Assembly: GCA_022496185.1 (NCBI GenBank)
Contig: WTXG01000119.1
Span: 1 to 64,000, forward strand
From: Multifurca ochricompacta
Lineage: Eukaryota > Basidiomycota > Agaricomycetes > Russulales > Russulaceae
Length of the DNA: 64,000 nt
Direction of reading: 5' to 3'
Shown: positions 1,566 to 58,845 of the stretch, piece after piece
Position numbering within the stretch: position 1 is the stretch's first letter
How the letters are laid out: every line of letters begins with the position of its first letter
Position numbers and translations under genes: made by a program
The notes under the pieces: generated by a model
The model's database searches: none
Told to the model about the DNA's origin: nothing
Seen by the model: the letters and a program-made list of their open reading frames with translations, nothing else

Positions 1566-1603
1566 CTTACACTTCAGAGTTTTCTTCACCTCTGAAGTGT
1601 AAG
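1566..1603 (+). promoter_or_regulatory. LTR hairpin covering a 5' splice site (L1)
   Basis: The arms CTTACACTTCAGAG (1566-1579) and CTCTGAAGTGTAAG (1590-1603) are perfectly complementary over 14 bp, with a 10-nt loop. The right arm contains the GTAAG donor of the intron-like segment that starts at 1599. The TATA box lies at 1541-1550, so the hairpin would sit close to the transcript 5' end. Regulation of splicing is an inference from this overlap. Confidence 0.7.
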
Positions 1604-1653
1604 TCCCATTTCTCTTACCTACTACTTTACCTTTGACTAACTGTCTCATGTAG
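1599..1653 (+). other. Intron-like segment in LTR L1 (55 nt)
   Basis: The segment begins GTAAGT, has CTAAC about 16 nt before its end, and ends TAG. The 22 nt before it and the 17 nt after it (1654-1670) occur again, directly joined, at 1691-1712 and 1713-1729. The second copy therefore equals the first with this segment cleanly removed. Confidence 0.75.
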
Positions 1654-2249
1654 ATAACTTGTCTCCTTAGGTGTGTAGTATAGTATATGAGAGTTTTCTT
1701 CACCTCTGAAGTATAACTTGTCTCCTTAGCTTCACCCGCTAACATCTACAATCAGTATGCTGCACACCGTGCCTGTTTCACAAGAAGGAACAAACATATG
1801 TACCACTCACCCCAAAGCCAAACTCAGCCCCCAACATCATGGTCCTTTCAAAGTCATACACTCTGGCCCTGTTAACTGCAAACTTGAACTCCCTAAGTCA
1901 TGGTGCATCCACCCAGTCTTTCACAACTCTCTCCTGTCCCATTACAAAGAAACCCCAGCCAATGGGCCCAACTTCACCCAACCACCACCTGAACTTGTGA
2001 ATGGGGAAGAGGACCATTACAAGATAGAGACCATCTTACAATCTACCCACACCCCTAATAGGAAAGGCATCTGTTACCTTGTCAAATGGAAAGGCTACCC
2101 TGCCTCAGAAAATTCTTGGGTCTCCTTCACTGATATGAAGAATGCCATGACCTTGCTTTGGGACTTCCATCACCAACACCCCACCCTACCTAAACCCCCA
2201 AACCTCTGACAACTTGCTGTGGCACAGCAAGGCCCTAAAGAGGGGATAG

Positions 2250-13659: not shown

Positions 13660-15627
13660 TGTCAAACAATCATGCTGCTGGTTATACTGACTGTGGTTAG
13701 TAGTGTGTGAGGCTAAAAGACAAGTAGTACTTCAGAGGTTAGAAGAACTCTCTACAACTATACTACTGACCTAAAAGACAAGTAGTCTACAGAAGATGGT
13801 TAGTCAAAGGTAGAAAAGAAAGTATAGTAAAAGGAACTTACACTTCAGAGGTTAGAAGAACTCTGAAGTGAAAGAGACGAAACAGACACCCTTATATACC
13901 CATAGGGGCCAGGGGAAATGGTCTGTGTGCACTGGGAATAAGTCCACAAGTGCCAGACAATAAACAATGAGGGAGTAAGGCCATTGGCCAACAAGGAGTA
14001 GTGATTGTCAAGGGGTTTCATACCTGTGCGGGTAAGCGCCATGGGTTTTGCCGGGTACGGGTACAGGTATACGGCTCCCAACCCGTGGAAACCCGTACCC
14101 ACGCGGCAGGTTTGGCGGGTATAGGCGCCGATTATGCATTGATAAGATCAGTAGAATTTCCGAGATAAAACACATCTGCAGTCACAAAAATACAAGATCT
14201 CATCTGATGTATGCTACAGGGTGGCGTTAAATATGTTCTAGTATTATCCTACAAAATATCAAAGCAGATTAACAGTGCGATGTAAAATAAAAGTGTTATC
14301 AGTGATCCACTTTCTTGAAAACCATGATACATCTGTTTTATTAACGCGCGACCAATTCTGCCAGTCTGGCACTATCTAAAATACACTCTAGACTAATATA
14401 GACTATTCTATAATTTAATTATCAAATTACTTTATTGAAACAAGGCCTGCGTGTGTCTACAAGCTGCATGGGGCAGTGACTACATTGCATCGCATGGTGG
14501 TCTGACCTCCTTCCTATTAAGGAAGGTTGACTTAAACGCGCAGAAATGTGCATCCAGGGACTAGGACAGTTGCGCTTGTATGAAATGAAACCAGAATAAT
14601 AAAATAATAATGTAAATAAAGGATCCATTTAATCTTCTGAACATAAACCAACAATTTTTGAGGAATCTTGAGTAGCCATAAATGAACGCGTTGTGTCCAA
14701 GTGCTTATCTCCTTGACCGGGATGGCCTGGGCCATTTACCTGAAATGCGCAGAAATGCAAAGAACAGTCGCGCTCGTATAAAATTGAAACCAGAATAATA
14801 AAATAAAAATAGAATAATAAATTATCTTAATCTTATGAACATAAAATAGGAATCTTTGAGGGATCTTGAGTAGCCATAAATGAACACGTTGTGTCCAAGT
14901 GCATATCTCCTTGACCGGGATGTCCCGGGCCAGATGTCCGATATGCGCGATGCCAGTAAAGAACTTGCATGCGTTTCATTTTATGGGTAACCCAGGTATC
15001 AAAACAATTATCCAGGGGTTACCCCTACCAATTTCTATGTGTTCATCAATTTTTTTGCATTCTGTGTAATTATCTGACAGGCTATTCATCAATGTTCTAT
15101 AACATCCTATCTAATCATTGCTGTATACTGGATTTTAGTTGTGCTTGTATAAAATTGAAAGCAGAATAATAAAATAAAAATGGAATAATTAATTATCTTA
15201 ATCTTCTGAACATAAAACAAGAGTCATTGAGGGATCTTAAGCAGCCACAAATGAGCGCGTTGTGTATCTTCTTGGTCTGGGAAGGCCCGGGCCAGTTATC
15301 CGAAATGCGCGATGCAAGTAAAGAACTTGCATGCGTTTTCATGGGTGACCCGCGGGTAACCCGCGGGTTACCTGTACCCGTAGTGATGGGTATGGGTATG
15401 GGTACGGGTACCAACGAGGATACCCCAGGGTTACCCCTGCCAATCACTAACAAGGAGACACGTGCTTACTGTGCATTACTAAGTCCATCACTAATCAGCT
15501 GAGTAAGGTGAGAAAGAAATGTAATAAAGATATCATAAAAAGTCTGAAACTCTGGAACCTAATCTAATCTACAGCTGAAGCGAACCTTAGATGCCTGAAG
15601 CACCTCCAGACACATCCTGTGTCAACA
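13660..15627 (-). repeat. Solo LTR of the Copia-A/B group (L2, type A), split by H4
   Basis: The left edge TGTCAAAC and right edge TGTCAACA are flanked by the 5-bp TSD CAATG (13655-13659 and 15628-15632). It is about 509 bp once H4 and its TSD are removed. On the reverse strand it carries the same hairpin, 55-nt intron-like segment and joined repeat as the other LTRs. Both copies of its downstream piece read ACTACTTGTCTTTTAG. Confidence 0.9.
13999..15449 (+). mobile_element. Non-autonomous hAT element H4 (1451 bp)
   Basis: It is nearly collinear with H2: the same termini (TAGTGATTGTCAAGGGG; TAGTGATTGGCAGGGGTAAC on the reverse strand), subterminal GGGTACGGGTA arrays and three internal ~190-bp units. 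It is flanked by the perfect 8-bp TSD ACAAGGAG (13991-13998 and 15450-15457), inside solo LTR L2. It keeps more CpG than H5. Confidence 0.92.
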
Positions 15628-20319: not shown

Positions 20320-21610
20320 CTTTTGCTCCAGTGAATGCTGCCTGAAATGCTTGTCGGAATTTCTCCCATGGGTGCAGCTCTTGAATTCTGGCATGGGCTA
20401 CATTGGCTAGCCACCATGTCTGCTCCATCACCCATTGGCTAATCTTGGGTCCTCTCATTAGGGCCAACACATATGATATTCTGGAGATCTTGTCTTTTAT
20501 GGCTGTTGCTTGGCTATTCAGGAAGATGTGGAGCTCTACTTGAGCCCACCAATGCTCTGCCTCTCCTCACTTTCCATCAAAGAATGGGGGTGGTACCCCT
20601 TCTATTTGTCCTCCAGTCATTTCATCTTTGGGGTGTTGTGGTTACTAGTAAGTCAGTGTATTCTCCTTCTGGGTCTTTTGGGTTAGCTGATCACTGTCAT
20701 TGTCTAGGTTGGGGTTCATGAAATATGGTTGGCATTGGGTCCAGGTTTGCTTCACTGGTAGCACTTCGAATATGGATGGAGGATATGTTTGGTTAGTGGG
20801 GTTCTGGAGGAATCAGGTGTGTTGAATCTGGTTTCATTTGGGACTATTCTAATAGCTTCAATCTGTCCTAGGTGTTTTAGGATGGACATGTCGAACAGGC
20901 ATGAGGCGCAGCATACTGACTGTGGGTTGTTAGCGGGTTAAGCTAGACAAAGACAAGTTAACTTCAGAGGTAGAAGAAACTCTGTTATACTATGCTACTG
21001 ACCTAGACAAAGACAAGTTACTATGTAAAGCATTAGTCTCAAGGTATGGTAGTAAGTAAAAGAGGGGACTTACACTTCAGAGGTAGAAGAAACTCTGAAG
21101 TGTAAGAGACGAAACAGACACCCTTATATACAATCCAAGGGATGGTCTGTGCACTGGGAATAAGTCCACAAGTGCCGGACAAAGTCCAAACAATAAACAT
21201 GAGGGAGAAAGGCCATTGGCCACTACAGAAATCACATGTTACATGGTGCATCAGTCAGCTACTGCGGAATGTGAGAAAGAAAGTAATAAAGATATAGTAA
21301 AAGTCCGACACTCCGGAATCTAATCTAATCTACAAAGCAGCTAATCTAATCACCTGATGCCTGAAGCATCACCGAACATCTCCTGTGTTCAACAGGACAT
21401 GGTACCAAGTTCCTTGGTAGAGGTTGATTGCAAGGCACATATGTTGGTAGGGGATCCAATATCCTCTAAAAGGTATGTTCTCTTTGCGAAGCTCTAACCA
21501 GCATGTGTTTGCTTTTAGCTCTGGGTCCACATTGTCAGCTGGTTGTATGGGAAGGATGAATGGGAAGGAGGTCACCATGGTTGCAAGGCTCATGTCAATG
21601 GATGTCAATG
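20320..21610 (-). pseudogene. gag: gypsy Gag fragment (G3), interrupted by a solo LTR
   Basis: The reverse strand reads EGVPPPFFDGK*GEAEHWWAQ, VELHIFLNSQATAIKDKISR and MLALMRGPKISQWVMEQTWW. This is the PPxFDG...W...LxLMRGxxxxxW pattern of fungal gypsy Gag (Retrotrans_gag type). A TGA replaces the expected Trp before GEAEHWW. The N-terminal part (21608-21400; LATMVTSFPFILPIQPADNV) is separated from it by solo LTR L3. Confidence 0.65.
20889..21394 (-). repeat. Solo LTR of the Copia-A/B group (L3, type B)
   Basis: A 506-bp LTR with the perfect 5-bp TSD GGACA (20884-20888 and 21395-21399). On the reverse strand the hairpin arms are 21106-21093 and 21082-21069 (14 bp, perfect), the intron-like segment is 21073-21021 (53 nt), the following piece is 21020-21003, and the joined second copy is 20982-20943. 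The 18-nt downstream pieces of the two copies are identical. Confidence 0.92.
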
Positions 21611-21985: not shown

Positions 21986-22406
21986 GGTTCAGGTGAGTTC
22001 TTTTGTTTATAAGTTCTGAGAAGTCTGTTTTAATGTCACAGCCAGGTCTTTGCTGTGTCAAGGTCATTCAAGCCACAGTCCCTCAAGTTATGGAGTGCAT
22101 GCAAGGTCAAGGTTGAGACTGTCAAGGATCAGTCAAGTTACAGTATCAAGGTGAACCACAGAGGGCCAGGATCAAGGCTCAAGGTCAAGGCTATCAAAAA
22201 CAAATTGATTCAAGAGTGTCAAAGCAAACTACAAGAGCCACAGTCAAGGTTCAAGAGGGGCACACATGCAAGAAGTGTTGAACAGGCATGAGGTGCAGCA
22301 TACTGACTGTGAAGTGTTAGCAGTTTAGGCTAAAAGACAAGTTAGACTTCAGAGGTGAAGAAAACTCTATTACTATACTACTGACCTAAAAGACAAGTTA
22401 GCTACA

Positions 22407-22816
22407 TGATGGATTATGATCCATTGACAACCTGGAGGAGCGCAAAAGCACACCACAGTCATCAAAAGTTCTAGCCTTTGGCTAGAACAATTAATTTTTG
22501 GCACGCTCCTCAGGGGCGATGAACTTTGATCTTGTTTGCGTCTCACATTTGATTCTACAGACTCTATGGTTAAAAGTTTACAGTTACAAGATTAACGTTT
22601 ATTTTATTTGATTATTTTATCTAACTGATACAAGTGCGACAAATTGAAAAAGTCACAAGATAAAATGTCTCATTTACTTAACCCCTATTTACAAAACTCT
22701 TATACTTGTATTGAAATTAACTGTAGTGTAAATTGTATAAAAAAGGCTTGAAAAAGTGAATCAAGCGAGCATTGTATTCTTTTTCCTATTTACATGTGTG
22801 TACCCCTATCTGGCCC
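22407..22816 (+). repeat. 5' LTR of Copia-C, 3' end deleted
   Basis: Nearly identical to the 3' LTR (27043 onward) through CCCTATCTGGCCC. It lacks the last ~15 bases (CCATAATCTTATCA) present in the 3' copy, and joins directly to gag coding. Confidence 0.9.
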
Positions 22817-27467: not shown

Positions 27468-27845
27468 CTACAGAGAGCGGTTAGTCAAAGGTATAAGTAG
27501 GAAGTAATGTAGAAGGGACTTACACTTCAGAGGTGAAGAAAACTCTGAAGTGTAGAGGACGAAACAGACACCCTTATATATCCCAAGGGATGGTCTGTGC
27601 ACACTGGGAATAAGTCCACTGGTGCCAGACATGGTCCAAACAATAAACATGAGGGAGAAAAGCCATTGGCTACTACAGAAATCACATGTTACATGGTGCA
27701 TCAGTCAGCTACTGCGGAACACAAGAAAGAAAGTAATAATGATAATGTAAAAAGTCCGAAACTCCGGTATCTAATCTAATCTACAAAGTAGCTAATCTAA
27801 TCACCCGATGCCTGAAGCATCACCAAACATCTTCCATGTTCATCA

Positions 27846-30977: not shown

Positions 30978-31489
30978 TGTCAAACAATCATGCTGCTGGT
31001 TATACTGACTGTGGTTAGTAGCGGGTTAGGCTAGAAAAGACAAGTAACTTCAGATGTTAGAAGAACTCTATATTACTACACTACTGACCTAGAAAAGACA
31101 AGTACTATAAGAAGCGTTAGTCTATAGGAAGTAGAGAGTAAACTAAAGGGAACTTACACTTCAGATGTTAGAAGAACTCTGAAGTGTAAGAGACGAAACA
31201 GACACCCTTATATACCCATGGGGGCCAGGGGAAATGGTCTGTGCGCACTGGGAATAAGTCCACAAGTGCCAGACAATAAACAGAGAGGGATTAAGGCCAT
31301 TGGCCAAGGAGATATCATGTGCTTACTGCGCATTACTAAAGGCATCACTAATCAGCTGAGTAAGGTGAGAAAGAAATGTAATAAAGATATTGTAAAAAGT
31401 CCAAAACTCCGGAACCTAATCTAATCTTATCTACAGCTAAAGCGATCCTCAGATGCCTGAAGCATCTCCAGACACATCCCATGTCAACA
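30978..31489 (-). repeat. LTR of the Copia-A/B group (L5, type A) at a chimeric junction
   Basis: A 512-bp LTR with no matching TSD (AACAC on the left, GAGGA on the right). The left neighbour is the interior of copia pol ending CATAACAC. In complete elements the base before this LTR edge belongs to a primer-binding site reading CCCATAACC. The hairpin, the intron-like segment and the joined repeat are all present. Both copies of the repeat share the variant ACATCTGAAGT. Confidence 0.85.
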
Positions 31490-32517: not shown

Positions 32518-33033
32518 TGTGAAACAGGCATGAGGCGCAGCATACTGACTGTGAGTGTTAGCGAGTAAAGCTAAAAAGACAAGTTATACTTCAGAGGAGA
32601 AGACAACTCTGTTACTATACTACACACCTAAAAAGACAAGTTATCTACATGAGATGGTTAGTCAAAGGTAAGGTAGTAAGTAGAACAGAAGGGACTTACA
32701 CCTCAGAGGAGAAGACAACTCTGAAGTGTAAGAGATGAAACAGACACCCTTATATACACTTCCAAGGGATGGTCTGTGCACTGGGAATAAGTCCACAAGT
32801 GCCGGACAAAGTCCAAACAATAAACAAGAGGGATAAAGGCCATTGGCCAATAAGGAATCACATGCTTGTACATCATTAGTAAGGTACATCAGTCAGCTAC
32901 TGTGGAATGTGAGAAAGAAAGTAATAATGATATGGTAAATAGTCTGAAACTCCAATATCTAATCTAGTCCACAAAGTAGCTAATCTAATCTCCTGATGCC
33001 TGAAGCATCACCGAACACGTCCTGTGTTCAACA
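32518..33033 (-). repeat. 3' LTR of Copia-B (L6)
   Basis: A 516-bp LTR close to 52601-53116. The hairpin arm carries one T to C difference at 32702 that leaves a G-U pair in the RNA. Downstream pieces of the intron-flanking repeat read ATAACTTGTCTTTTTAG in both copies on the reverse strand. It is followed by TCCCTCCATG, the reverse of the purine-rich tract that primes plus-strand synthesis. Confidence 0.92.
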
Positions 33034-33340
33034 TCCCTCCATGCTGAAGGCATCTGGTCATGGGTGTGTTGACACAGGATGTGTCTGGAGATGCTTCAGG
33101 CATCTGAGGATCGCTTTAGCTGTAGATAAGATTAGATTAGGTTCCGGAGTTTCGGACTTTTTACAATATCTTTATTACATTTCTTTCTCACCTTACTCAG
33201 CTGATTAGTGATGTCCTTAGTAATGCGCAGTAAGCACGTGATATCTCTTTGGCCAATAGCCTTTATCCCTCTCTGTTTATTGTCCGGCACTTGTGGACTT
33301 ATTCCCAGTGCGCACAGACCATTTCCCCTGGCCCCCATGG

Positions 33341-33350
33341 GTATATAAGG
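33341..33350 (+). promoter_or_regulatory. TATA box in the Copia-A 5' LTR
   Basis: GTATATAAGG, present at the same place in all LTRs of the A/B group (e.g. 1541-1550 in L1). Transcription should start about 25-30 bp downstream, next to the hairpin at 33370. Confidence 0.75.
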
Positions 33351-33369
33351 GTGTCTGTTTCGTCTCTTT

Positions 33370-33398
33370 CACTTCAGAGTTCTTCTACCTCTGAAGTG
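33370..33398 (+). promoter_or_regulatory. Hairpin at the predicted transcript start of Copia-A
   Basis: The arms CACTTCAGAG and CTCTGAAGTG pair over 10 bp with a 9-nt loop. Type-B LTRs extend the stem to 14 bp. The last paired base is the G of the GTAAGT donor of the intron-like segment. Confidence 0.7.
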
Positions 33399-33453
33399 TA
33401 AGTCTTTCCTTTACTATACTATTCTTATACCTTTAACTAACCGTCTTATGTAG
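33398..33453 (+). other. Intron-like segment in the Copia-A 5' LTR (56 nt)
   Basis: Starts GTAAGT, has CTAAC at 33437-33441 and ends TAG. Its two flanks recur fused at 33491-33527, differing at one base here (33513) and at none in the 3' LTR. Length and signals fit the transposase introns in this same window (45-66 nt). Confidence 0.75.
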
Positions 33454-33579
33454 ACTATCTGTTTTCTAGGTCAGTAGTATAGTTAATAAAGAGTTCTTCT
33501 ACCTCTGAAGTATTATCTGTTTTCTAGCCTCACCGCTACTAACCACAGTCAGTATAACCAGCAGCATACTTGTTTCACA

Positions 33580-33594
33580 GGTTATGGGCCCTGC
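33580..33594 (+). promoter_or_regulatory. Copia-A primer-binding site, half-tRNA iMet type
   Basis: GGTTATGGGCCCTGC directly follows the LTR. Its complement GCAGGGCCCATAACC corresponds to the anticodon stem-loop of eukaryotic initiator tRNA-Met (GCAGGGCTCATAACC), with one difference that still allows G-U pairing. Copia of Drosophila and Ty5 use such an internal tRNA-iMet fragment as primer. The same site occurs in Copia-B (52586-52600, reverse). Confidence 0.8.
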
Positions 33595-34518
33595 TGCTCA
33601 TACTGATCTGTAACTCCCTTTGTTCATTACAGCCCAACTTGCTCTTGCACAAACCAAGCTCACAAAAAGCTTCAAAGTTTTTCCCACCAGCTTTCAACTG
33701 TGAGCTTTCTTAATTACTGTCTGTGCACCTTAACACCCCACAGGATGACGCAGTTTACTGCTCATCCTGAACTGTTTGGCTAGCCCTTCGGGGTTCTTGC
33801 AAAAGGTGATGAGGGACCCTAAGCGGGTGAAACACCTTGAGCTCCTTGAGTGCGCACTAGGTATTAGTAACCTTCATAGTTGTAGCTGGGTCTTCGTCCC
33901 ATAGATAGCTTTAGTAGGCCTATAGCCAGAAGCTTGTGGCTTTAAGTCCAGTTAATGCTTGGCTTGATCCGTAAGCCAGGTTTAGCGACCTGCAGGTAGA
34001 GTTTAGGGTCTAGAACAAGGCATGGGTAGTCACTCCCATGACGCTTGGGCTCGATACAAGTAGGCTGCACTACTATAGTCTTTACATAGTAGCTAGAAGG
34101 TTTTGTCTCTGGGCAGAAGCATTCGCTGCCATGTTGTGGGGGTTTGCCCCACCAGAGGAAACCTAATAGTCTACTTAGTCATGGCCCCAATCATCTAGGG
34201 CTTAATCATGGACTCCACCACCAGCATTAGAGAAAGGGCTATATACCCTTTGTCTCTAATGGAACTTGCGGTTGGCTCCTCCATGACATGACTCCCAGTC
34301 TTGGTTACACCAGACACTCTGGCTAGTCTACCAGAGCTTATGTCTAGTTACAAGATTGCGCTAGACAGCTTTACTATACCTAGAAAGTCGCACAACAAAG
34401 GCAGGACCTTTTTAGGTTCTGAAGCATAGCGCCACAGTATGGGGTGGCACTCTTAAGCGAGACCTGGGCACTGGTTCTAACTGCTCCTTGGAACCAGGAA
34501 CATTTATAACATCTCACA
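33595..34518 (+). other. Copia-A 5' leader, non-coding, structured
   Basis: About 920 nt between the primer-binding site and the gag ATG. It contains short hairpins such as CATGGGTAGTCACTCCCATG (34021-34040) and GTGGGGGTTTGCCCCAC (34136-34152), and pyrimidine-rich 3' splice-like sites. It is collinear with the Copia-B leader (52585-51667). This conservation suggests a cis-acting RNA role such as packaging or translation control (inference). Confidence 0.6.
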
Positions 34519-37500
34519 ATGCCGTCCTCAATCGTCTTTCCTCCCTCCTCCAAGATGGAGTGCCTTGATGGCGCAAACTGGCAGGTTTGGTCTGCCAACT
34601 TCAATGCGCTTTTGAGGATGAACGGGCTCAGGAGGCACATTTTAACGCCTTACCCTGACATGCCTCTCCTCCCTGAGGACAAGGAAGAAAAGGAGAAGAT
34701 GCAGAAGGAAGTCGTTGACCCCATCCTTAGGGAATGGATGGGAGAAGAGGAAATGCTTATTGGGCTCCTCTTTCTTAACGTCACCCAAGAGGTCTACTCC
34801 CAAGTAGCCTCTGATGCCAATTATCCTTCTCTTAGTGAGAAGTATAATAAGTTGGAGTGGCTTTATGGCTCTGTAGGTAGCATGGCCATGTATAATTTGT
34901 GGCTTGCCCTGGTGTCCTTCCGTCTTGATGAAGGACAGACATTCAGAACTCAATTACAAAAGGTTCTGGATGCCAGGAGTACCCTTAGGGAGAATGGGAT
35001 GGAGGTCAATGACCTCCAGATGAGCTTCATTTTACTGAAGGCTCTCCCTGACTCCTACAGTGCCATTGCTGGCTCCATACTGGCCTCTGGCGACCCAGAG
35101 CGTCTCTCTCCTCAGGACCTTGTGCAGAGGTTCCTAAATGAGGAAAGTCGCCTGGCAGGTCCCTCGGGAAGTGGTAGTGCAGTCCTATCTAAGGCTGCAC
35201 CTGTCAAATCAAACAAACCAAAAAATTTATCACCACTTCCCGCTGCTGCCCCTGGTCCACAAGGGGTGGTCTGCTTCTATTGCCAAAAGCCTGGACACAA
35301 GTCCAATGCTTGTGCAAAGAAGAAGAAGGACCTGGAAAATGCCAAGAAAGGCAAGGCAGGGAACAAGAAGAGGGCTGAGGCCCAACATGTAAATACTATA
35401 GCCACCATAGTTAATGGTAGTGGCAAAATAGAGGAGGTGCATGAAGCACCTCGCATTCGCCTTTATGTTCACACCTATAATCTGGATATCAACTCAGATT
35501 ATTGGATGCTTGATAGTGGAGCAATGTCTCATTTCAGTCCCAACCTTGAAGACTTCGATACATATAAAGTTGACAGTACCCATGATGTATCACTAGGTGA
35601 CAACTCCATAGTCAAAACAAGTGGAGTTGGCACTGTGATCATCAGGACTGATCAAGGTTTTGACTTGGAATTGAGCCATGTGCTCCACATGCCTGGAGGA
35701 CATAAAATACTCTCTGCCAGTGCCCTGGTAGAAAAAGGGGCAACTGTGTTCTTTGATAACAAGAAGGCAACAATAAAATATGGCGATAACATTATAGCGG
35801 AAGCATGGAAGTTTGGCAAATTGTATTGGGTACTAGGCAAACACGTCCTAAGCAGTATCCATACATCTGCATCTGCCTCACTTGAAATCTGGCATCAAAG
35901 AATGGGCCACATGTCTAAACAAGCCCTAAAAAGATATGCTCCTGAGGTGGTTAAAGGCCTCAGAATAGATGATAGCCAAGTGGAAGACAAGCCGTGTTAT
36001 GGCTGTGAAATGGGCAAGTCCCATCGTCTCCCATTTCCCCCATCTTCAAAGTGCGCATCAGCCCCCCTTGAGATCCTTCATAGTGATCTCGTAGGTCCCT
36101 TGCAGTGCAGTTCAATACAAGGAAATCTATACTTTGCCACTTTCTTGGACGATTTTAGCAGATACGCTTTAATCGTTCCAATGAAATCTAAGGATCTGTT
36201 CACACCAGTTTTTAGTAAACTGAAGACACTACTTGAAAATAAATTTAATCATAAAATCAAGTGTCTTCATACAGATCATGGTGGCGAGTATGTGAACAAG
36301 GCGCTGAAGGCAACGCTTGAAGATTTTGGCATAGAGCATAAACTTACGATGCCGTATAGTCCACAACAGAATGGAAGAGCTGAGAGATTCAACCGAACCA
36401 TTATGGAAAAAGGCACTAGCATGCTGCACGATGCTGGCCTGTCTCTCGGTTTCTGGGAGTGTGCTGTTGAGACAGCATGTCATATTTATAACAGAACTCC
36501 CATTCATTCTAATAAGTGGAAAACTCCACTTGAGCTTCTGGTTGGGAACAAACCAGATGTCTCGTATTTTAAGGTCTTTGGATGCAAAGCCTATTATCAT
36601 GTTCCAGAGGGCAAGCGGTGTAAATTGGATCCCAAAGCCAGGGAAGCCGTCTTTGTCAGGTATGAGCCCACTTCTAAGGGCTATACACTTTGGGATAGTC
36701 GTACCCGGTCTCTCATCTCTTCACGAGATGTTACATTTGATGAGAGATCCTTCCCATCCCGCTCTGATAAGGACAACAGAGCAGAGAAATCTATAGAGCA
36801 ACCTAGTCAAGGTGGCTCATTTACTGTACCTGGTGGCAATGTCCAGCCACCACCAGCAGCAGCTACACATGTTCCTGAGGCTCCTCAGCATGAGGAAGAC
36901 CTGGAAGAGGAACAGGAGGACATTGTACCTTCTCAATTAGCACCACAGCCTACCACACCCACACATAATGTAGACACCACACACCCTCAGACTATATATC
37001 AGACCCCTCCATCTCAAATCATGGAACCATCCTCCCCTCCCAAAAGAACCAAAGCAATCAGAAAATCACAAAGGATTGCAGACAGAATTCCTCAACCAAA
37101 TTTTCAGAGGACAAGTCCACGCTCTGAATGACGAGATAGGGCAATCCAAGAAGATTTAGACTTGGATACTGCACGTCCCAATCGGAATCGTCGTCTGAAT
37201 CCTTGATTCTACAACGAGGATAATGCAGAGTTTGTGCAAGGTTCTTCCAGACTTGGTCAGATGGATCTACTCAATGCTGCAGGATTGCCCTATAGGGATC
37301 CTCTTACTTTTAAAGAAGCAATGGAGTCTGATAATGCCAGTGATTGGCTTGAGGCATGTCAATATGAAATTGATGCCTTAGAAAAACTTAAAGTGTGGTG
37401 CCTTGAAGACCTTCCTGAAGGTAGAAAGGCTGTAAAGTCCAAGTGGGTCTTTAAATTGAAAGCAGATGGACGCTTTCATGCTAGGCTTGTAGCAAAAGGG

Positions 37501-38841
37501 TTCACCCAAATAGAAGGGGTGGACTTCGACGAAACATTCTCCCCAGTCGCCAGATTTGAGTCTCTTAGACTATTATTAGCATTGGCCATGCTTGAGGATT
37601 GGGAAATCCACCAGATGGATGTCAAATCGGCATTTCTACATGGCGATCTGGATGAGGAGATTTATATGGAGCAACCTGTTGGTTTCGTCATTGCTGGACA
37701 AGAGTCCAAAGTTTGTAGGCTACAGAAGGCTCTGTATGGCCTCAAACAAGCTTCCCGAGCATGGAACTTGCAATTCCATGCAGTTCTCAATGAACTGAGC
37801 TTTACTTGGACATACTCTGATGCAGGAGTATATGTGTATCATCACCAAGAGGGGGATGGTTCACTTTTCGTCATTTTATATGTTGATGACATCACTATAC
37901 TTGGGTCCTCCACTAAGAAGATACAATGGCTGAAGGACTCTCTATCTAGCCGATATGAGATGACCGATCTTGGCGAAATCCAGTCCTACCTTGGAGTTAA
38001 CATCACCAGGGATCGTCCTAACAAGACACTGGACATAGACCAGACAGCCTATGTATCCTCTATAGTTGAGAGGTTTGGAATGGGGGATTCCAACCCAGTA
38101 TATACTCCTCTACCCACTGGCATGGATGTTCATTTGGTCAAGTTTGAAGACCAGGCATCTACCTCTGATATTAAGAGGTATCAGCAGTTAATGGGGTCTC
38201 TGCTTTGGGTGCAGATTGGAAGCAGACCTGACATTAGTTTTGCTGTTGCGCACCTTAGCCAATTTGCTTCCAACCCTTCCCAGCAGCACATGCGACTAGC
38301 AAAGTATGTCTTAGCTTATTTAAATGCTACAAAAGACTACAAGTTGCGCTATTCTGGAGGGAATGGTGAAGTTGGCCTTCATGGCTTTGTGGATTCCTCA
38401 TGGGGAGATCAAGAGGACCGCCACTCCACCTCTGGCTATGTCTTTTTCCTTGCTAATGGAGCCATTAGTTGGTGTTCCAGGAAACAAAAGACAGTAGCAC
38501 AGTCCACCACAGAAGCTGAATATATGAGCCTTGCTGAGGCTTCAAATCAGGCAGTGTGGTACAGGACGTTCATGCAGGAATTGGGATATGAAGTTAGTTC
38601 ACCCATACAACTGCATTGTGACAATAAGGGTGCAGTAGATCTTGCATTAAACCCTGTCACAGGAAGGCGATCAAAGCACATACCAATAAAGTACCATGCC
38701 ATTAGGGAGTATGTAGAATCGCACCAGATTGACTTGGTGCGAACTCCCACTGGAGAGATGCTGGCAGATGGCCTCACAAAGTCTCTGCCTAGATCATCTT
38801 TTGATCTCATGGTAACTGGATTTGGACTAGTGCTGGAATGA
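34519..38841 (+). CDS. gag-pol: Copia-A Gag-Pol polyprotein (1440 codons, two in-frame TGA)
   Basis: One frame encodes all functions. Gag (UBN2-like) is residues 1-215; zinc knuckle CFYCQKPGHKSNAC is near 251-264; aspartic protease (WMLDSGAMSHFS) near 328-340. The integrase zinc region (WHQRMGHMS...CYGCEMGK) starts near 457. The integrase core has D523, D586 and E622 (DD35E). RT begins near 940, with QMDVKSAFLHGDL and YVDD at 1121-1124; RNase H has VDSSWGD, TEAEY, CDNKGA and MLADGLTK. TGA codons at 37129-37131 and 37204-37206 interrupt it in the linker between integrase and RT; both fit CGA to TGA transitions. Otherwise no frame break is seen, so integrase-side and RT-side halves remain open. 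The ATG at 34519 is followed directly by a typical Gag start. Confidence 0.93.
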
Positions 38842-39093
38842 AGGAGCTGGAATCTGGAGACTTTGTTCACCATTTTCACTTTCCCACCATGCCACATGAG
38901 TATGTTCTCGACCTCGAGAGTGACGCAAGAGGTGTGTAGACTTGCATAAGCGAATCTACAACTCATATGCAAAACTCACAAAGAGTTAGAGAAGTTGGAT
39001 CTCTGGCTGGTGACATGTTCGTTCAATTGTGAACAGCAGTGTGCTCATTTAATTCATTCCATTTGTATGATCAATGCCTTCACCATGGAGGGA
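38842..39093 (+). other. Copia-A 3' untranslated region and polypurine tract
   Basis: About 250 bp of non-coding sequence with collinear counterparts in Copia-B2 (28130-27846) and Copia-B. It ends with the purine-rich ATGGAGGGA (39085-39093) directly in front of the 3' LTR, which would prime plus-strand DNA. Confidence 0.7.
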
Positions 39094-39606
39094 TGTTGAC
39101 ACGGGATGTGTCTGGAGATGCTTCAGGCATCTGAGGATCACTTTAGCTGTAGATAAGATTAGATTAGGTTCCGGAGTTTCAGACTTTTTACGATATCTTT
39201 ATTACATTTCTTTCTCACCTTACTCAGCTGATTAGTGATGCCTTTAGTAATGCGCAGTAAGCACATGATATCTCTTTGGCCAATAGCCTTTATCCCTCTC
39301 TGTTTATTGTCCGGCACTTGTGGACTTATTCCCAGTGCGCACAGACCATTTCCCCTGGCCCCCATGGGTATATAAGGGTGTCTGTTTCGTCTCTTTCACT
39401 TCAGAGTTCTTCTACCTCTGAAGTGTAAGTCTTTCCTTTACTATACTATTCTTATACCTTTAACTAACCGTCTTATGTAGACTATCTGTTTTCTAGGTCA
39501 GTAGTATAGTTAATAAAGAGTTCTTCTACCTCTGAAGTACTATCTGTTTTCTAGCCTCACCGCTACTAACCACAGTCAGTATAACCAGCAGCATACTTGT
39601 TTCACA
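39094..39606 (+). repeat. 3' LTR of Copia-A (L8)
   Basis: A 513-bp LTR matching 33067-33579. Intron-like segment 39425-39480; flanking pieces 39404-39424 and 39481-39496; joined second copy 39518-39538 plus 39539-39554. Both pieces are identical in the two copies here. Confidence 0.95.
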
Positions 39607-41048: not shown

Positions 41049-41053
41049 ATATA

Positions 41054-41638
41054 TGTTACAACCTCTACCGTCTGTCCCCATTTTCTTTCTACTCCCCAAC
41101 GACGACCCCTCCCTGCCGCCCACTTTACACTTCTCAATCACATCTCTGTCGTGGGACCCGTCACATGCCCTGCTTCCATCCCCGTGACCTGCTTTGTACT
41201 TGTTGATGCGACGTTTGCCTATGTTTATCTCGTTATCTTGTTATCGTCTTATCTTTACGACTGGACACTTACTTAATACCCTATCAGAAGCTAGACTTTA
41301 CGCCGTCTGCTTCCATATATTTGGGCCCACTTGACTCCATATCCTTATCTTGTAGACGCCCATCGAGTTACATATATAAGTCCGCTGTAGTTACACTGTA
41401 GACCTCAGACTTGACTTATTGAATACATCGGTGCTTGTCTTCTGGACATCCCTTTGATCTCTGACTCAGTTGTCTCGGGTACTTCGGGTACCTTTCTGTT
41501 CAACATTGTCTTAGGGAGCGCCCCTTTGACTTTGACTCATCCCACTTCATCTCCAAGAAGCCTTATTGGTTTCTTACCTGAACCTACGAATCGTGCTGTC
41601 ACACAAGTTGTGTGGAACGTCCCACACTGGACGTAACA
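41054..41638 (+). repeat. 5' LTR of Gyp-1
   Basis: TGTTACAACCTC to GACGTAACA, 585 bp, nearly identical to 47916-48499. TATA-like box TATATA at 41375-41380; predicted transcript start at AGACTTGACTT (41407-41417), complementary to the site just after the LTR. Confidence 0.93.
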
Positions 41639-41640
41639 TC

Positions 41641-41651
41641 AAGTCAAGTCT
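41641..41651 (+). promoter_or_regulatory. Gyp-1 self-priming primer-binding site
   Basis: AAGTCAAGTCT begins two bases after the LTR and is the exact complement of AGACTTGACTT at 41407-41417, about 32 bp after the TATA box. In Tf1 and related chromoviruses the first 11 nt of the transcript fold back onto the primer-binding site and serve as primer. The same pair is found in Gyp-2. Confidence 0.75.
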
Positions 41652-41657
41652 CTCATC

Positions 41658-43165
41658 GTGGCTTCCAGCCGCAGTCAGACCTTGTTCAAAGAAGAGCTCA
41701 TCAAACGAAGAGACAAGAATAATCTTTCGCAGCAGACACTTGGTTCTGCCGCCTGGAAAGACTTTGAATCTGAGTTTGGATACTACGTCTATCACGACGG
41801 AAGATACCAACCGGTAGAATACGACGACGAGAAGAGGGTTTGGTATCGTATCCGATATTCGGACAGCCGACACTCTTGGGTCACTACAGGGCCCGCCCCA
41901 CCTGAATTCAGATTAGGACCGTGGAGAGAAAATCCCCGGCCATCGTCATGGACTCTGAACCAGAAGAGTATGTAGAAGAACATAGCGAAGAAGCACTGGT
42001 ATTAGCGTCGACTACAACCCCAGTTGCACCAGCAGTTGTCACATTCAGAGCCCCTGCTTTGACAACTCCCCAGATATCTATACAGTCCACCAGCACCGTC
42101 ACCACGTCAAAACAAACAATGTCCACCATCGCCCCCAACTCCCAGACCCAGCCCCTCCGCCGCCACCACCCCACCAGTCATGATGCCGCCAAATATACCC
42201 CCACCCTCGGGATGACTATCAGGAGTACTACCCCAGACCTTCACAGGGGATCGCTCCCAGAGCAAGAAGTTTATGTTGGAGTTTACAACGTTCAAAAACT
42301 TCAACCATGATGTCCCCCAGATCATTAATCCGTTCCAACGCGCCAATCTCTTCCTATCTCTGATATGAGGGGACGCGGTAGATGACTGGACAATGGAGCA
42401 GCTGGAGTGGCTGAATGAACAAGTCGAAGGTGGTCGTCGCACCACTAGTGAAATTCTTGGGGAAACCATCGCCCAGAGATTCAAGGACGCATTTACGGAC
42501 GGACAGGCCAAGCAGAAGGCTGCCCGAGAGTTAAAGTCTCTCAAGATGGAAAAAGGAGAGTTGGATGCCTATGTGGCAAATTCAGAAGCCTGGCCAACAG
42601 GGCTGGGTATGACATGGACAAGAGGCAACATTGGACCTCTTCTCACAAGGGTTGCCTAACCCACTGGTCAAAAACATCATCCAGTTCCACCACCCCCAGG
42701 ACTGGGATGCATGGGTTGATGCTGCTCGACGACAGCAGCAAGATTATCTCGACTTCCAGACACACTTCGGAGTCGATACCAAGAAAGGGAAAACTCGAGA
42801 CCAGTGGAAGGCGGCCTTCGGGGTCAAACCAGCCCATGCTCCCCAGAGGGATCCAAACGCAATGGATACCTCAGCTGACAGAACCAGAGTAGGGTCGCAC
42901 TGACAGAAGACGAAAGGCAGACATTGATGAAGGAAGGGAGGTGCTTTCACTGCAAAGCACTGGGCCATATGTCAAGGGAATGCCCAAAGAAAGGGGCACG
43001 AGTGGCGGAAGCTACGGTCACGCCTATCCGCAACAACCCACCCACCGTCAGAAAAAGACCCAAGAAAGAAGAAAAGGTGCAAGAGATATGGGCAAACATG
43101 ATGAAGGAAAGCGAGGAAGTGCGAGCCATCTTAGTAGAGAAGGCTTTCGCCAAAAAGGATTTTTG
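41658..43165 (+). pseudogene. gag: Gyp-1 gag, frame-broken
   Basis: An N-terminal stretch without ATG (SSRSQTLFKEELIKRRDKNN, WKDFESEFGYYVYHDGRYQP, RHSWVTTGPAPPEF) leads into MDSEPEEYVEEHSEEALVLA at 41948. After a frame change near 42130 comes the Gag core (INPFQRANLFLSL, GDAVDDWTMEQLEWLNEQVE, FKDAFTDGQAKQKAARELKS), then, after two more changes, a zinc knuckle CFHCKALGHMSREC near 42945. Gag ends at 43163-43165 in AFAKKDF*, with pol continuing in another frame. Confidence 0.85.
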
Positions 43166-46100
43166 ATTGGCTCTACCCCGTCGGCCTGGGCACAGCACTA
43201 CATGTAACCTCTGTGTATACTAGTCGCTTCAAATCATTGAAAATACCAGTACATTTCGAGACTACACAGAGGATGGCCACTGTGACATCCTGATCGACTC
43301 AGGAGCCACTGATAACTTTATCAGCCCATGAATGGCGAGGACCATGGGCTTGGGGATGCTGGAACTCCCCCAGGAAAAGAACATCTGGAACATAGACGGA
43401 ACGGCTAATAAAGCCGGAAGGATTACCCACTACACTGACCTTAATGTCCAAGTGGGGGAAAGGACAAAGACAATTCGCTTCCTTGTCACCAATTTGGGAA
43501 ACAAAGATCTAATCCTAGGATACCCATGGTTGGCTGCATTCGAGCCAAAAATCAATTGGAGTGACGCGACCATGGACAAGGACTACTACCCAGTTCTCAT
43601 CACATCATTAGGGTATGACTATGCCGTCCGACACGCAAAGGTACCAGAGACAGAAGAGGAGGATGCGGAACGCTGCTATGTTACGAAAGCATCAGAACTA
43701 GCCCAAAAGGCAGCAGAAGGACATACAGAGAAGACCTTTGAGGAGGTAGTGCCAGAGGTTTATCACCGACATTGGAAAGTGTTCTCAGAAGAGGAGTCAC
43801 AACGTTTCCCCCAGCACGCCCTTGGGATCACGCTATCGAATTCACGCCTGACACCCCATCTGCCATTGACTGCAAAATCTATCCATTGTCCCAGAAAGAG
43901 CAGGAGGCACTCACAGCGTTTCTTGAAGAGCACCTTGCAAAAGGATATATCCGCCCGTCGAAGTCACCATACACATCGCCTTTCTTCTTCATCAAAAAGA
44001 AGGATGGGAAACTTCGACCCGTGCAAGACTACGACGGATAAATGCCCATACCATAAAGAACGCTTATCCTCTCCCCCTCATTTCCGAACTCATTGATACC
44101 ATGAGGGACAAGTCCCTATTCTCCAAAATGGACGTCCGTGGGGGTACAATAACATCAGGATTAAGGAAGGAGATCAGTGCAAAGCAGCATTCAAAACCAA
44201 CCAGGGACTCTTTGAGCCAAATGTTATGTTTTTCGGTCTTACCAACTCGCCCGCTACCTTCCAATCTATGATGAACCACATTTTTCGCGACCTTATCCTC
44301 ACAGGCGAAGTAGTGGTATACATGGATGATATCCTCGTGGCCACAACAGACAATTTGACCCATCATCGAGAACGAGTTCACCAAGTGTTGGACATCCTGC
44401 ACAGCACGACTTATACCTCAAGCCGGCCAAATGCTCATTTGAACAACGGAGCATAGAATACCTGGGGGTTATCCTGGAAGGAGGACGGGTTCAGATGGAT
44501 CCGGTGAAGGTGCAAGGCATTCGGGAATGGCCCACACCCACGTGCATCAAGGATGTGCGATCCTTCATTGGGTTCTGCAACTTCTACCGGCGATTTGTAG
44601 AGGATTCTCGGGTATGGCCCAACCATTGAACGGGCTGTTAAAGAAGGATACACCTTGGCACTGGGGAGATGAACAACAAGAGCCTTCGAACAGATCCGGG
44701 ACATTATCGGCTCAGAACCAGTTCTTCTGCAGCCAGACCTAACAAAGCCCTTTGAACTCGAGGTAGATGCATCGCGCTTTGCAAACGGAGCCATACTCAA
44801 CCAGGAGATGCGGGAGGGTTACTTCATCCAGTTGCCTTCTACTCGGAAACATTCTCGCTGGCAGAACGGAATTACGATATTTGGGACAGAGAACTGCTCG
44901 CCATTGTAAAGGCACTACGACATTGGCAACCGTACCTAGCAGGGACTCCCCATAAAACCATTATTCACACCAATCACTCCAACCTATTATATTGGAAGGA
45001 ACCCCACAAGATCAGTCGGCGGGTTGCCCGCGAAGTCTTGGAACTGGAGGAATATAACTTCGTGTTGAAACATATTGCAGGAAGTCGCAATGCACGCGCA
45101 GATGCCTTGTCACGACGGCCGGATTGGAACAGTGGAGAAGAGGACAATAATGATGTCATGGTCCTACCTGAAGAGGTTTTCGCAAAAACCACCGTCGTGA
45201 GCCTCCATGACATGGACCTATGGGCTCAAGTGTCACAAAACATGAACCAACAGTTATGCGAGTCATGGGCAGACTCACATAATCTGAAGAAAATCGATGG
45301 CCTTTGGTGGAAGGACGGGGATCGACTCGTTGTCACCGGTGGCGACAACATTAAGAGGGGGGTGATCCATTTTCACCACGACCTCCCTCGGCGGGCCACC
45401 CTGGCATTACGAACACATATGCCTTGGCCAAACGAGATTACTGGTGGCCTGACATGAAGAAGGATGTGGAAAACTATGTGAAAGGATGTGCGGACTGCCA
45501 AGCCAACAAAGTAAACACACACCCGCACCCACCAGCACCATTCCCGATCACACCTACGGCCTCATTACCGTTCCAGACCATTGCGATGGACTTCATAGTC
45601 AAACTCCCCATCTCCAGAGGGTTCGACTCAATCTTAACCATCACGACCACGACTGCTCTAAAGCGCATTGTTCATACCCTGTAATGAGTCCGTCACAGCG
45701 GAAGGCGTAGCCAAACTTTACCTGGATCACGTCTACAGACACTATGGCCTCCCCGAAAAGATCATCTCTGACCGCGACCCACGCTTTACCTCCGCCTTTG
45801 CCAGGGCGCTCTGTAAGACCTTGGACATCACCCAGAATATTTCGACCGCCTACCATCCACAGACTGACGGACAATCAGAAAGAACGAACCAATGGCTAGA
45901 ACAGTATCTTCGATTCTGGTGCAACAGGCGACAGGACGACTGGGCTGACTGGCTAGCCATGGCAGAGTTTGCACACAACTCATGGCCCAACGGAACCACC
46001 AAGACCCCTCCATTCTCACTTATCATGGGATGGACGCCACGGACCAACTGGACCAAGAAACCCACAAATGTCCCATCGGCTGCGCAACGTATCAGCCAAT

Positions 46101-46620
46101 GGGAGGAGATCAGGAAATCAGCCAACAAAAACCTGCTCAAGGCGCAAAGAATCCTATCCGAAAGGCCGTCAAAGTTCACACCTTATCGGACCAATGACCT
46201 CGTCTGGCTGGAGGGAAAGAACATTCATACGTCACACCCCACCGCCAAATTAGCTCCCCGACGTCTTGGGCCCTTCATGATAACGAGGAAGCTGTCAGAT
46301 GTGTCATATGAACTCGGACTTCCATCCACATGGAGAATTCACCCAGTCTTCCATGCCCGACTCCTGACACCCTACAGAGAGACAACCCTGCATGGGGAGA
46401 ACTTCCCGAGACCCCCCCCTGAATTAATCGATGGAGAAGCGGAGTGGGAAGTGGAGCGAATTCTAGATTCTTACATAAAGGCCGAGGGCGCAAGCTGCAT
46501 TACCTAGTCAAGTGGAAAGGATTCCCAGACTCTGACAACTCGTGGGAGCCCTGGGGAATATCTTTGCCCCGGCCCTTATCTCGGAGTTCCATACCGACAT
46601 CCAGAGGCGCCCAAGAATAG
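43166..46620 (+). pseudogene. pol: Gyp-1 pol: protease, RT, RNase H, integrase, chromodomain
   Basis: Protease ILIDSGATDNFIS is near 43280. RT motifs include NLGNKDLILGYPWLAAFEPK (about 43492), [40 protein letters not shown] and VVVYMDDILVATTDNLTHHR near 44310. RNase H follows (EVDASRFANGAILNQ near 44760). The integrase zinc region has YWWPDMKKDVENYVKGCADC near 45440; the core has [34 protein letters not shown] near 45760 and [14 protein letters not shown] near 45855. At the C-terminus are HPVFHARLL and the chromodomain ([14 protein letters not shown] near 46506). At least six small indels break the frame. Confidence 0.88.
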
Positions 46621-46659
46621 TTAAAAGGAAGACCCAGATCCTAAGGAAATCCCCAGTAC

Positions 46660-47884
46660 ATGCTCCCACAGCAACGTCCTACAACCATCGAATCTATTAT
46701 GTCTTTCATCGCTGCCAACGCCGCCATTGATGCCTTTGCTGCCACCACCGAGGTGTCGAGAACTTCCCCTCTGCACACCCCTCCACACGTCCCTCCTCAC
46801 CCATTGATTACGAGGCCGCCGAAGCCGAGTCAAGAACCAGTCCCCCAACCCCAATGACGACTTTGAGCATGTGAAGAACCACATCCCAATGACCTGATAG
46901 GTATGGAGTCAGATGAGAAGTCCCGAGTTCCCCTTCTTTGTAACAACCCGAACTCCTCCACGTACTACCCGTTGGAGATCACCTTGGGCGACGGACAGTC
47001 GCCATCGCCAGTATATTTCTACACAATGGAGGGATGGACGTGGCCGGATGCATGAAGAAGGACGGTCCTGTTTATGGAGCTCCAGTATATCTGGAGGAAA
47101 GGTACACTGGCCGTTTGCACCACACCATGACCGACGAGCAGCTGGGGCATCTGGCTGCTGAAGACTCGCGAGCCTTTGCCATCGACGAAGTACTGAGTGA
47201 CATGCGACTTCCGCGTCTCAAAGCCGAGGTAATGAGACTGCGGAAGAATCTAACCTTACGCAATACACTCAACAAGCAGTACAAAGAACACCGAAGGATG
47301 ATGGCCCGGCTGACCAATGGGATGTTCAAATTGAGCAGGAGTTGGTGGAAATTCGAAAGAGGCTGGAGAAAGGGGATGCCTACCAGACAATTGCCGAAAG
47401 GTACGCCGACACGTATGCCCGACCCTTACCCCCACGATCATTGGGGGCTGCCCCTGTGCTGTTGCCAAACCGATTCGAGATGCCGCGTATGCATGAGAAC
47501 CCCCGTGGAGAGACATGTGGCGCTGTGATAGTAAGTATCACATCAGCTGGAACTGCCCCCTCAACCGCAAGTGGTGTCGGCACTGTCGTAGCAACCTGCA
47601 CTGGAGCAGGTTCTGTATTTTCTGCCGAATAGGAGTCGCCCGACGATCAACAACCCATCCGCATGGTGCGGCAAGTGCTTGCGTCACAATGCTGGACACC
47701 GCGAGTTGGACTGTCCTGTCCACGACCAGTGCCACTTATGCGGTCGACGCGGCCCTACGGATTCCTCCGCACCCACCAATGCCCCCAGGATGAAGACAAG
47801 GAGAATTATACCATGGATGATCGTAATGTAGCTGATGACTACTTGGAGTTGGTACAGGATGATGACGGTACGAGTCGTTTCTAG
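46660..47884 (+). pseudogene. Gyp-1 ORF3 (env position), Cys/His knuckle protein
   Basis: It begins MLPQQRPTTIESIMSFIAAN. Despite several frame changes it retains GGMDVAGCMKKDGPVYGAPV near 47030, a helical segment (LKAEVMRLRKNLTLRNTLNK near 47218) and the knuckle region (CDSKYHISWNCPLNRKWCRH near 47519). It ends with an acidic tail (DDYLELVQDDDGTSRF) and a stop at 47882-47884. It is collinear with ORF3 of Gyp-2 and G1. I do not recognise a function; no signal peptide or membrane segment is seen. Confidence 0.8.
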
Positions 47885-47901
47885 CCGGGTCTGCTAGAAC
47901 C

Positions 47902-48499
47902 AGAAGAGGGGGTGATGTTACAACCTCTACCGTCTGTCCCGTTTTCTTTCTACTCCCCAACGACGACCCCTCCCTGCCGCCCACTTTACACTTCTCAATC
48001 ACATCTCCGTCGTGGGACCCGTCACATGCCCTGCTTCCATCCCCGTGACCCGCTTTGTACTTGTTGATGCGACGTTTGCCTATGTTTATCTCATTATCTT
48101 GTTATCGTCTTATCTTTACGACCGGACACTTACTTAATACCCTATCAGAAGCTAGACTTTACGCCGTCCGCTTCCGTATATTTGGGCCCACTTGACTCCA
48201 TATCCTTATCTTGTAGACGCCCATCGAGTTACGTATATAAGTCCGCTGTAGTTACACTGTAGACCTCAGACTTGACTTATTGAATACATTGGTGCTTGTC
48301 TTCTGGACATCCCTTTGATCTCTGACTCAGTTGTCTCGGGTACTTCGGGTACCTTTCCGTTCAACATTGTCTTAGGGAGCGCCCCTTTGACTTTGACTCA
48401 TCCCACTTCGTCTCCAAGAAGCCTTATTGGTTTCTTACCTGAACCTACAAATCGCGCTGTCACACAAGTCGTGTGGAACGTCCCGCACCAGACGTAACA
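47902..48499 (+). repeat. Polypurine tract and 3' LTR of Gyp-1
   Basis: The purine tract AGAAGAGGGGGTGA (47902-47915) is followed by the 584-bp LTR, which ends at the ATATA duplication. Confidence 0.92.
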
Positions 48500-52600: not shown

Positions 52601-53116
52601 TGTGAAACAGGCATGAGGTGCAGCATACTGACTGTGAGTGTTAGCAAGTAAAGCTAAAAAGACAAGTTATACTTCAGAGAAGAAGACAACTCTGTTACTA
52701 TACTACACACCTAAAAAGACAAGTTATCTACATGAGACGGTTAGTCAATGGTAAGGTAGTAAGTAGAACAGAAGGGACTTACACTTCAGAGGAGAAGACA
52801 ACTCTGAAGTGTAAGAGACGAAACAGACACCCTTATATACACTTCCAAGGGATGGCCTGTGCACTGGGAATAAGTCCACAAGTGCTGGACAAAGTCCAAA
52901 CAATAAACAAGAGGGATAAAGGCCATTGGCCAATAAGGAATCACATGCTTGTACATCATTAGTAAGGTACATCAGTCAGCTACTGCAGAATGTGAGAAAG
53001 AAAGTAATAATGATATGGTAAATAGTCCGAAACTCCAATATCTAATCTAGTCCACAAAGTAGCTAATCTAATCTCCTGATGCCTGAAGCATCACTGAACA
53101 CGTCCTGTGTTCAACA
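52601..53116 (-). repeat. 5' LTR of Copia-B (L9)
   Basis: A 516-bp LTR with a 14-bp perfect hairpin, an intron-like segment and the joined repeat. Both copies of its downstream piece read ATAACTTGTCTTTTTAG on the reverse strand. It abuts the TCTGC duplication at 53117. Confidence 0.93.
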
Positions 53117-53807: not shown

Positions 53808-53809
53808 TC

Positions 53810-53820: not shown

Positions 53821-53826
53821 CTCACT

Positions 53827-58807: not shown

Positions 58808-58845
58808 AAGGAGATGACCCCAAGCCCCAGCTGAACCCCCAGTAC

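Follow-up and report, generated by a model that had tools for sequence, protein, structure and literature searches.

A Ty1/copia-type LTR family of Multifurca ochricompacta whose R region appears to be assembled by splicing and renewed at each replication cycle

Introduction

In the standard U3-R-U5 anatomy of long terminal repeats (LTRs), R is contiguous and identical at both ends of the RNA, and strand transfer in LTR elements is as a rule driven by homology. Introns are normally lost when spliced RNA is reverse-transcribed, and none would therefore be expected to persist in the spliced portion of the RNA of an LTR element. Penelope elements with an intron in their terminal repeat resemble the element described here in keeping it, but they are target-primed and are not known to have a U3-R-U5 strand transfer or a spliced duplicate. 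Among retroviruses, HTLV-1 has a splice donor in R and foamy viruses have their major splice donor there; in foamy virus a switch at this donor controls polyadenylation and the donor itself serves the splicing of downstream genes. To our knowledge, retroviruses of the HTLV-1 or RSV/MMTV type have neither an intron wholly inside the LTR nor a duplicated spliced R, and among open-licence papers on LTR introns and LTR anatomy, judged by title and the start of the abstract, none appeared to describe an LTR of this kind.

An excerpt of PMC3694450 describes how 13 nt of U3 alter the structure of the foamy virus donor at the 3' LTR, and how HTLV-1 and viruses of the RSV/MMTV type have 3'-end signals upstream of the start that are active only in the 3' LTR. 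In foamy virus as that excerpt presents it, the LTR donor is treated differently in the 5' and the 3' copy because its structure depends on U3 nucleotides that closely precede the start, and we propose a difference of this sort for Copia-A, an element found in a stretch of 64,000 nt of the basidiomycete Multifurca ochricompacta (contig WTXG01000119.1 of assembly GCA_022496185.1; hereafter "the window"). The difference from foamy virus is that the proposed introns of Copia-A lie wholly inside the LTR and that their spliced product would be the R used for strand transfer.

Copia-A shares with Ty1/copia elements (Pseudoviridae) a Gag, an integrase ahead of the reverse transcriptase (RT), TG...CA LTRs and a 5-bp target duplication. 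Unlike in those elements, introns interrupt its R, as we read it, at the 5' end, and a ready-spliced copy of R lies further down the same LTR. Direct comparison of sequences establishes the layout of the LTR, the concerted evolution of its parts and its abundance, and we consider it likely that Copia-A belongs to a Ty1/copia-type family whose R is assembled by splicing and renewed in each cycle, with the introns kept via the 3' copy. A family of more than 1,000 LTR copies would then appear to have made splicing part of its replication, with introns that renew themselves. If this is true, the element owns introns that reverse transcription cannot erase, and the spliceosome, the choice of transcription start and strand transfer are joined in one mechanism.

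Results and discussion

Copia-A and the layout of its LTRs

Copia-A was delimited by self-alignment of its LTRs, which are 98.4% identical over 515 aligned bp, and by the GGGTG target duplication that flanks it on both sides (Table 1). Besides this pairing of TG...CA LTRs with a short target duplication, the domain order is copia-like, with gag and an rve integrase upstream of an RVT_2-type RT; PF00665 was found in the first of two large frames and PF07727 (E 5e-82) in the second. The primer binding site that follows the 5' LTR is presumably complementary to the anticodon region of tRNA-iMet, and it may be of the half-tRNA-iMet type known from Ty1/copia. The coding frame is broken at 37129-37233 by at least one in-frame stop, and other copies of the family have longer open frames of up to 1487 aa. 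In-frame stops in RT copies are TGA except for three copies with TAG, and TAA occurs in none; this dominance of TGA suggests C-to-T decay of CGA codons through methylation or RIP-like damage.

Table 1. Features of the window (positions in nt; + and - denote the strand)
Feature	Position	Strand	Remarks
Copia-A, whole element	33067-39606	+	LTR pair and GGGTG target duplication
Copia-A 5' LTR	33067..33579	+	TG...CA, 513 bp; self-alignment to 3' LTR
TATATAA box	33342..33348	+	34 nt upstream of proposed start; conserved in 68 LTRs compared
Predicted donor-hiding hairpin, 5' arm, CTTTC-ACTTCAGAG	33366..33379	+	complementary to 33389-33402, one mismatch
Exon A	33376..33397	+	22 nt; proposed +1 at A33376; left edge of repeat
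Intron 1	33398..33453	+	56 nt; GTAAGT...CTAAC...TAG; precisely absent from A2-B2
Exon B	33454..33469	+	16-nt microexon, ends in TAG, then GT; sequence reading
Spacer	33470-33490	+	A at 33490 counted in repeat
Proposed intron 2	33470..33527	+	58 nt; spacer, A2 and B2; GTCAGT...TAG; GT conserved
A2-B2	33490..33527	+	spliced copy of A and B; proposed to act as R at the 3' end of the RNA
U5	33528..33579	+	sequence reading
Primer binding site GGTTATGGGCCC	33580..33591	+	directly 3' of LTR
Copia gag-integrase-RT frames	34519-37131 and 37234-38841	+	both in one frame, separated by at least one in-frame stop
Copia-A 3' LTR	39094..39606	+	self-alignment; ends inspected
A-intron-B-spacer-A2-B2 block of 3' LTR	39403..39554	+	
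Full layout, another subfamily	1582..1730	+	
Full layout	13712..13863	-	
Full layout	20942..21096	-	
Full layout	31030..31179	-	
Full layout	32570..32715	-	
Full layout	52653..52798	-	
LTR fragments with part of layout	22276-22409 and 27468-27845		

The order of features in the Copia-A LTR is TATA–A–intron 1–B–spacer–A2–B2–U5, in which A2-B2 equals A and B joined without the segment of intron 1. The stretch after the proposed start is thus split by an intron-like segment and repeated in fused form 114 nt downstream, and a plain contiguous R shows neither of these properties. The original prediction had placed A at 33377-33397, the intron at 33398-33453, B at 33454-33469 and the fused pair at 33491-33511 plus 33512-33527. 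These positions are correct and the fusion is exact at the junction; the repeat extends one base further to the left, where 33376 and 33490 are both A, and B2 of the 5' LTR differs from B by one mismatch (ATTATC against ACTATC), while the two are identical in the 3' LTR. In the first copy, the left edge of the repeat is an A that follows a C, 34 nt past the TATA box; the base equivalent to A33376 was left free when second copies were parsed (see below) and is A in 83/83 of them.

The layout is abundant in the window and in the genome

That the layout recurs in the window had been claimed for nine LTRs, and it does so in eight complete LTRs and two partial fragments. A scan of both strands for the signature of a splice copy (X|GT...AG|Y with a fused XY within 400 nt, exact over 9+9 letters) gave 16 matches: six show the intron-1 form and lie in these LTRs, nine show the intron-2 form and lie either in these LTRs or in the fragment that begins at 22276, and one is located elsewhere. 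Five one-strand shuffles in which two-base blocks were moved gave 0, 0, 0, 1 and 0 matches, and the signature in the window is not due to chance. Owing to its mismatch in B2, the 5' LTR of Copia-A is not among the exact matches of the intron-1 form. The one match outside recognised LTRs lies at 22112-22190 on the + strand.

Across the genome (53.8 Mb in 605 contigs), 1,386 stretches matched the layout pattern and none matched its reversed control. At least 81 matches to the RT were found, among them a copy with 87% RT identity on contig C19 that is flanked by two LTRs with the full layout. Identity between LTR subfamilies in the window falls to about 71% in self-alignment, and the layout therefore predates the present bursts. 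Proteins related to the RT numbered 7,906, with Rhodofomes roseus among the best 120 of the 7,906, while a search of viral_contigs with the RT protein found no relative and one pattern-matching stretch there was unrelated. The window also holds two related elements of ~7.5 kb (41053-48499 and 53211-60708) with LTRs of about 590 bp that are 83% alike between the two; one has a Tf2-1-like SH3 domain and the other an H2C2 integrase zinc domain, and they are probably of the Gypsy type.

The two blocks evolve in concert

We parsed 83 of the 84 LTRs matched in the window and in fetched loci, leaving out L021, in which the AG of intron 1 is changed. The parsing expression demanded that ACTTCA precede A, that GT follow B, that the spacer contain GTAG, that both B and B2 end in TAG and that CYT follow B2, and none of these features counts as evidence within the 83; of the intron 1 donor it demanded only G as first and T or C as second base. 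B was trimmed to the length of B2 wherever AG preceded, and equality of A with A2 or of B with B2 was no precondition.

All 83 sequences are distinct and comprise 17 A and 29 B sequences in 45 combinations. Comparing the two blocks across family copies, as the original prediction had proposed, showed that they match in nearly every LTR: A equals A2 in 79/83, B equals B2 in 80/83 and both hold in 76/83, indels included, with the few disagreements being mostly single substitutions. The mean edit distance from A to A2 is 0.05 within and 1.79 between LTRs (minimum of 10,000 permutations, 1.42), and from B to B2 it is 0.04 within and 3.34 between LTRs (minimum of 10,000 permutations, 2.64). When each LTR was compared with its nearest relative carrying another A, A2 was nearer to the A of its own LTR in 81/83 LTRs (the reverse in 2); in the corresponding comparison, B2 was nearer to its own B in 82/83 (the reverse in 1).

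Blocks of the same LTR mismatch at 6/3,121 aligned sites (0.19%) over the 83 LTRs, compared with 30/2,946 sites (1.0%) between the 5' and 3' LTRs of six pairs. By this measure the blocks do not appear to predate the insertions, and A/A2 and B/B2 seem to have been identical at insertion, just like the two LTRs of an element. A2-B2 follows A and B through indels and substitutions, yet without the segment between them, and splicing is the process known to make such exact joins. The edges of the repeat, with a likely start site on the left and TAG on the right, also fit a cDNA of spliced RNA. Taken as sequence evidence, these patterns suggest that the fused block is rewritten from spliced A and B at nearly every insertion and is no relic of one event.

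A single event is what had been proposed at first. A one-time join of spliced strong-stop DNA to an unspliced R when the family arose, inherited ever since, would account for the precise fusion in any single LTR. Inheritance alone, however, cannot keep each A2 identical to its A and each B2 to its B across 17 A and 29 B types, and blocks that agree within LTRs while differing between subfamilies imply that copying recurs, so that we regard this origin as very improbable. Gene conversion or recombination at the DNA level could also homogenise both blocks, and the collapsed LTR forms described below fit recombination between A and A2 (53) and between B and B2 (3). It would nonetheless have to act separately on 22 bp and 16 bp across an unrelated and intact intron of 49-57 bp, halt at the start site and at TAG, and precede nearly every insertion, and we give it next to no credence.

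Two candidate introns in the LTR

Intron 1 has the sequence features of a short spliceosomal intron of fungal type, with GT-AG ends, a branch motif and a length of 49-57 nt in the 83 LTRs. Its donor is GTAAGT in 82/83 and a CTRAY motif is present in 83/83, about 12-14 nt from the intron end in 82/83. The second candidate, composed of spacer, A2 and B2, measures 55-60 nt and ends in TAG, which the parsing demanded. For the GT that follows B, the evidence comes from patterns with this dinucleotide left free, which had GT in 1,386/1,389 matches; both versions of the pattern fix TAG ahead of it and GTAG two bases further on. Exact CTRAY was found in 0/29 of the B2 types scored for intron 2; their mean best branch score is -3.6, above -8.7 for shuffled B. 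CTAAC occurs at the branch position of intron 2 only in other copies, namely the fragment at 22276-22409 and some matches of fused A-B plus U5. Splicing of intron 2, with this poor branch site, is a proposed step.

What argues for this step is the form of the products. If only intron 1 were removed, strong-stop DNA would keep the spacer-A2-B2 unit and its annealing would add another such unit, but fused A-B followed by the spacer has 0 exact matches in the genome, so that a second intron would have to leave the RNA too; fused A-B followed by U5 has 953. The same absence of a doubled spacer speaks against a single founding event with a donor that lacked intron 1 alone.

An alternative with splicing of intron 1 alone would have A2-B2 renewed by tandem duplication of spacer-A2-B2 at strand transfer, followed by contraction. 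It needs just the well-formed intron 1 and is spared the weak branch site of intron 2. The tandem intermediates expected from it are, however, the very forms that had no match, and the TAG of B before GT as well as the TAG of B2 before U5 would become coincidences; we find this alternative improbable. The original prediction likewise considered removal of intron 1 only; strand transfer from such a donor would either introduce another spacer-A2-B2 unit or cost the LTR its intron 1. The core of the prediction is supported, namely that a spliced 5' end was reverse-transcribed and placed beside the unspliced region by strong-stop transfer. The observation is confirmed, and the first interpretation was right in kind but too small.

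Two further variants were searched, as fused A-B plus spacer had been, with exact patterns, which miss copies with altered anchor letters. A followed by U5 with B skipped had 2 matches compared with 4 in the reversed control, which is chance level. A-intron-1-B-U5 had 40 matches compared with 52 in the reversed control, of which 3 were judged real by reading and 37 dropped; two of these (L098 and L105) were judged in context and the one at C601:39215 by its matched letters alone. The three LTRs fit loss of intron 2 and recombination between B and B2 alike and decide nothing.

A proposed replication cycle with splicing as a step of reverse transcription

In the cycle proposed here, the ends of the transcript, splicing of intron 2, strand transfer, a hairpin switch and a benefit to the element are all inferred. 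Transcription would begin at A, at about position 33376, and introns 1 and 2 would both leave the 5' end of the genomic RNA, which would then begin with A-B-U5 and match A2-B2-U5. Strong-stop DNA copied from this spliced 5' end would pair with A2-B2 at the unspliced 3' end of the RNA, and the DNA would then be lengthened across the spacer, B, intron 1, A and U3, which would restore the LTR with its introns. In each cycle A2-B2 would be overwritten by spliced A and B, while the introns would be inherited from the 3' copy, where they lie within the functional U3. We lean towards a cycle in which splicing is a required step of reverse transcription, with R being spliced, the template rewritten each time and the 3' copy shielded by a hairpin that depends on the start site.

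Alternatively, the RNA might end at the spacer, without A2-B2, and the reverse transcriptase might jump onto it from the spliced 5' end without homology. AATAAA is found just upstream of A2 in some copies, and the base before A2 (window 33489) is hypervariable, as an end-to-end join might leave it. Set against this are spacer lengths that mostly lie within a few bases of each other and the prevalence of homology in the strand transfer of LTR elements, and we judge such a jump quite unlikely. The base at 33489 is T in 43, C in 25, A in 11 and G in 4 of the 83 copies and thereby more variable than its neighbours; it may mark the joint of strand transfer. Beyond CCT, the beginning of U5 (33531-33537) likewise has some positions that are unusually variable among otherwise near-alike LTRs. 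The proposed cycle accounts for neither the variable base before A2 nor these U5 bases.

For the introns to persist, both would have to survive in the 3' copy. Intron 2 would escape splicing there if polyadenylation precedes the end of B2. Intron 1 is complete in the RNA of the 3' LTR and should be spliceable there, yet a genome pattern able to catch layouts devoid of intron 1 had no match, which counts against our model. A possible way out is offered by ACTTCAGAG, which lies before and across the start; its complement, CTCTGAAGT, is located where A ends, and the pairing reaches into the donor. All but the last 4 nt of this hairpin arm lie upstream of the proposed start, so that the arm would be present only in RNA read through from U3, that is, at the 3' LTR. 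The arm has the form CTT[T/A]C-ACTTCAGAG, in which CTTAC pairs with GTAAG in 12/82 LTRs and the commonest version, CTTTC (50/82), leaves one mismatch.

Folding was computed for 82/83 LTRs, and column variability was assessed in 68 of 82 LTRs. The predicted hairpin has a mean of -15.8 kcal/mol with the U3 arm and of -2.5 kcal/mol from +1 onwards. The probability that the U1 site is unpaired is 0.43 in the 5' RNA and 0.23 in the 3' RNA (lower in 72/82), compared with 0.34 in 3' RNA with the 10-nt arm shuffled once per copy. For GTAAGT alone it drops moderately from 0.48 to 0.35 (lower in 65/82), while the donor of intron 2 is equally accessible in both (0.27 and 0.27). Covariation in the hairpin arms of the 82 LTRs gave no support, with the arms varying only at few 5' positions. 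On these predictions, the arm would cover the donor of intron 1 in the 3' copy only, and this probably keeps that copy of the intron from being spliced. Such start-dependent hiding of a donor has a tested parallel in foamy virus and is a prediction for this fungus.

A possible benefit is that the element would always retain a 5' intron, which would help it in a host whose mRNA levels are raised by introns. Excerpts of PMC4935854 and PMC3744415 report that reporter expression in Armillaria mellea needed an intron and that intron removal greatly cut the mRNA of most tested genes in Cryptococcus neoformans, respectively. The reason for intron retention in such elements could be tested directly in fungi with intron-boosted expression. 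The DNA alone provides a signature that can be sought in any genome: an unspliced block beside its spliced copy, both changing together.

Collapsed LTRs as possible side products

Strong-stop DNA that paired with A instead of A2 would yield a short LTR of the form U3-A-B-U5. Fused blocks in the absence of the intron-bearing block, which the original prediction had regarded as a form that would speak against it, do exist: the genome has 53 such collapsed LTRs of 32 A+B types, which lack the introns and the second block. Of these types, 11 (21/53 copies) also occur among the 83 full-layout LTRs. Two pairs of collapsed LTRs lie on one strand about 6.0 kb apart, on contigs C212 (299870, 305854) and C246 (168856, 174820), compared with a spacing of 6,027 for the LTRs of Copia-A. 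Judged by this spacing, each pair seems to represent the two LTRs, both of them short, of a single element, which fits an origin before or at insertion and does not fit a later deletion in one LTR.

We read the 53 collapsed LTRs, from their sequences, as derivatives of the full layout. It is possible that they are instead remnants of an older plain LTR, and plain recombination between repeats also fits them as well as the three A-intron-1-B-U5 LTRs. In one further copy, A and the beginning of intron 1 come after the spacer, an arrangement that fits the product expected from an unspliced donor.
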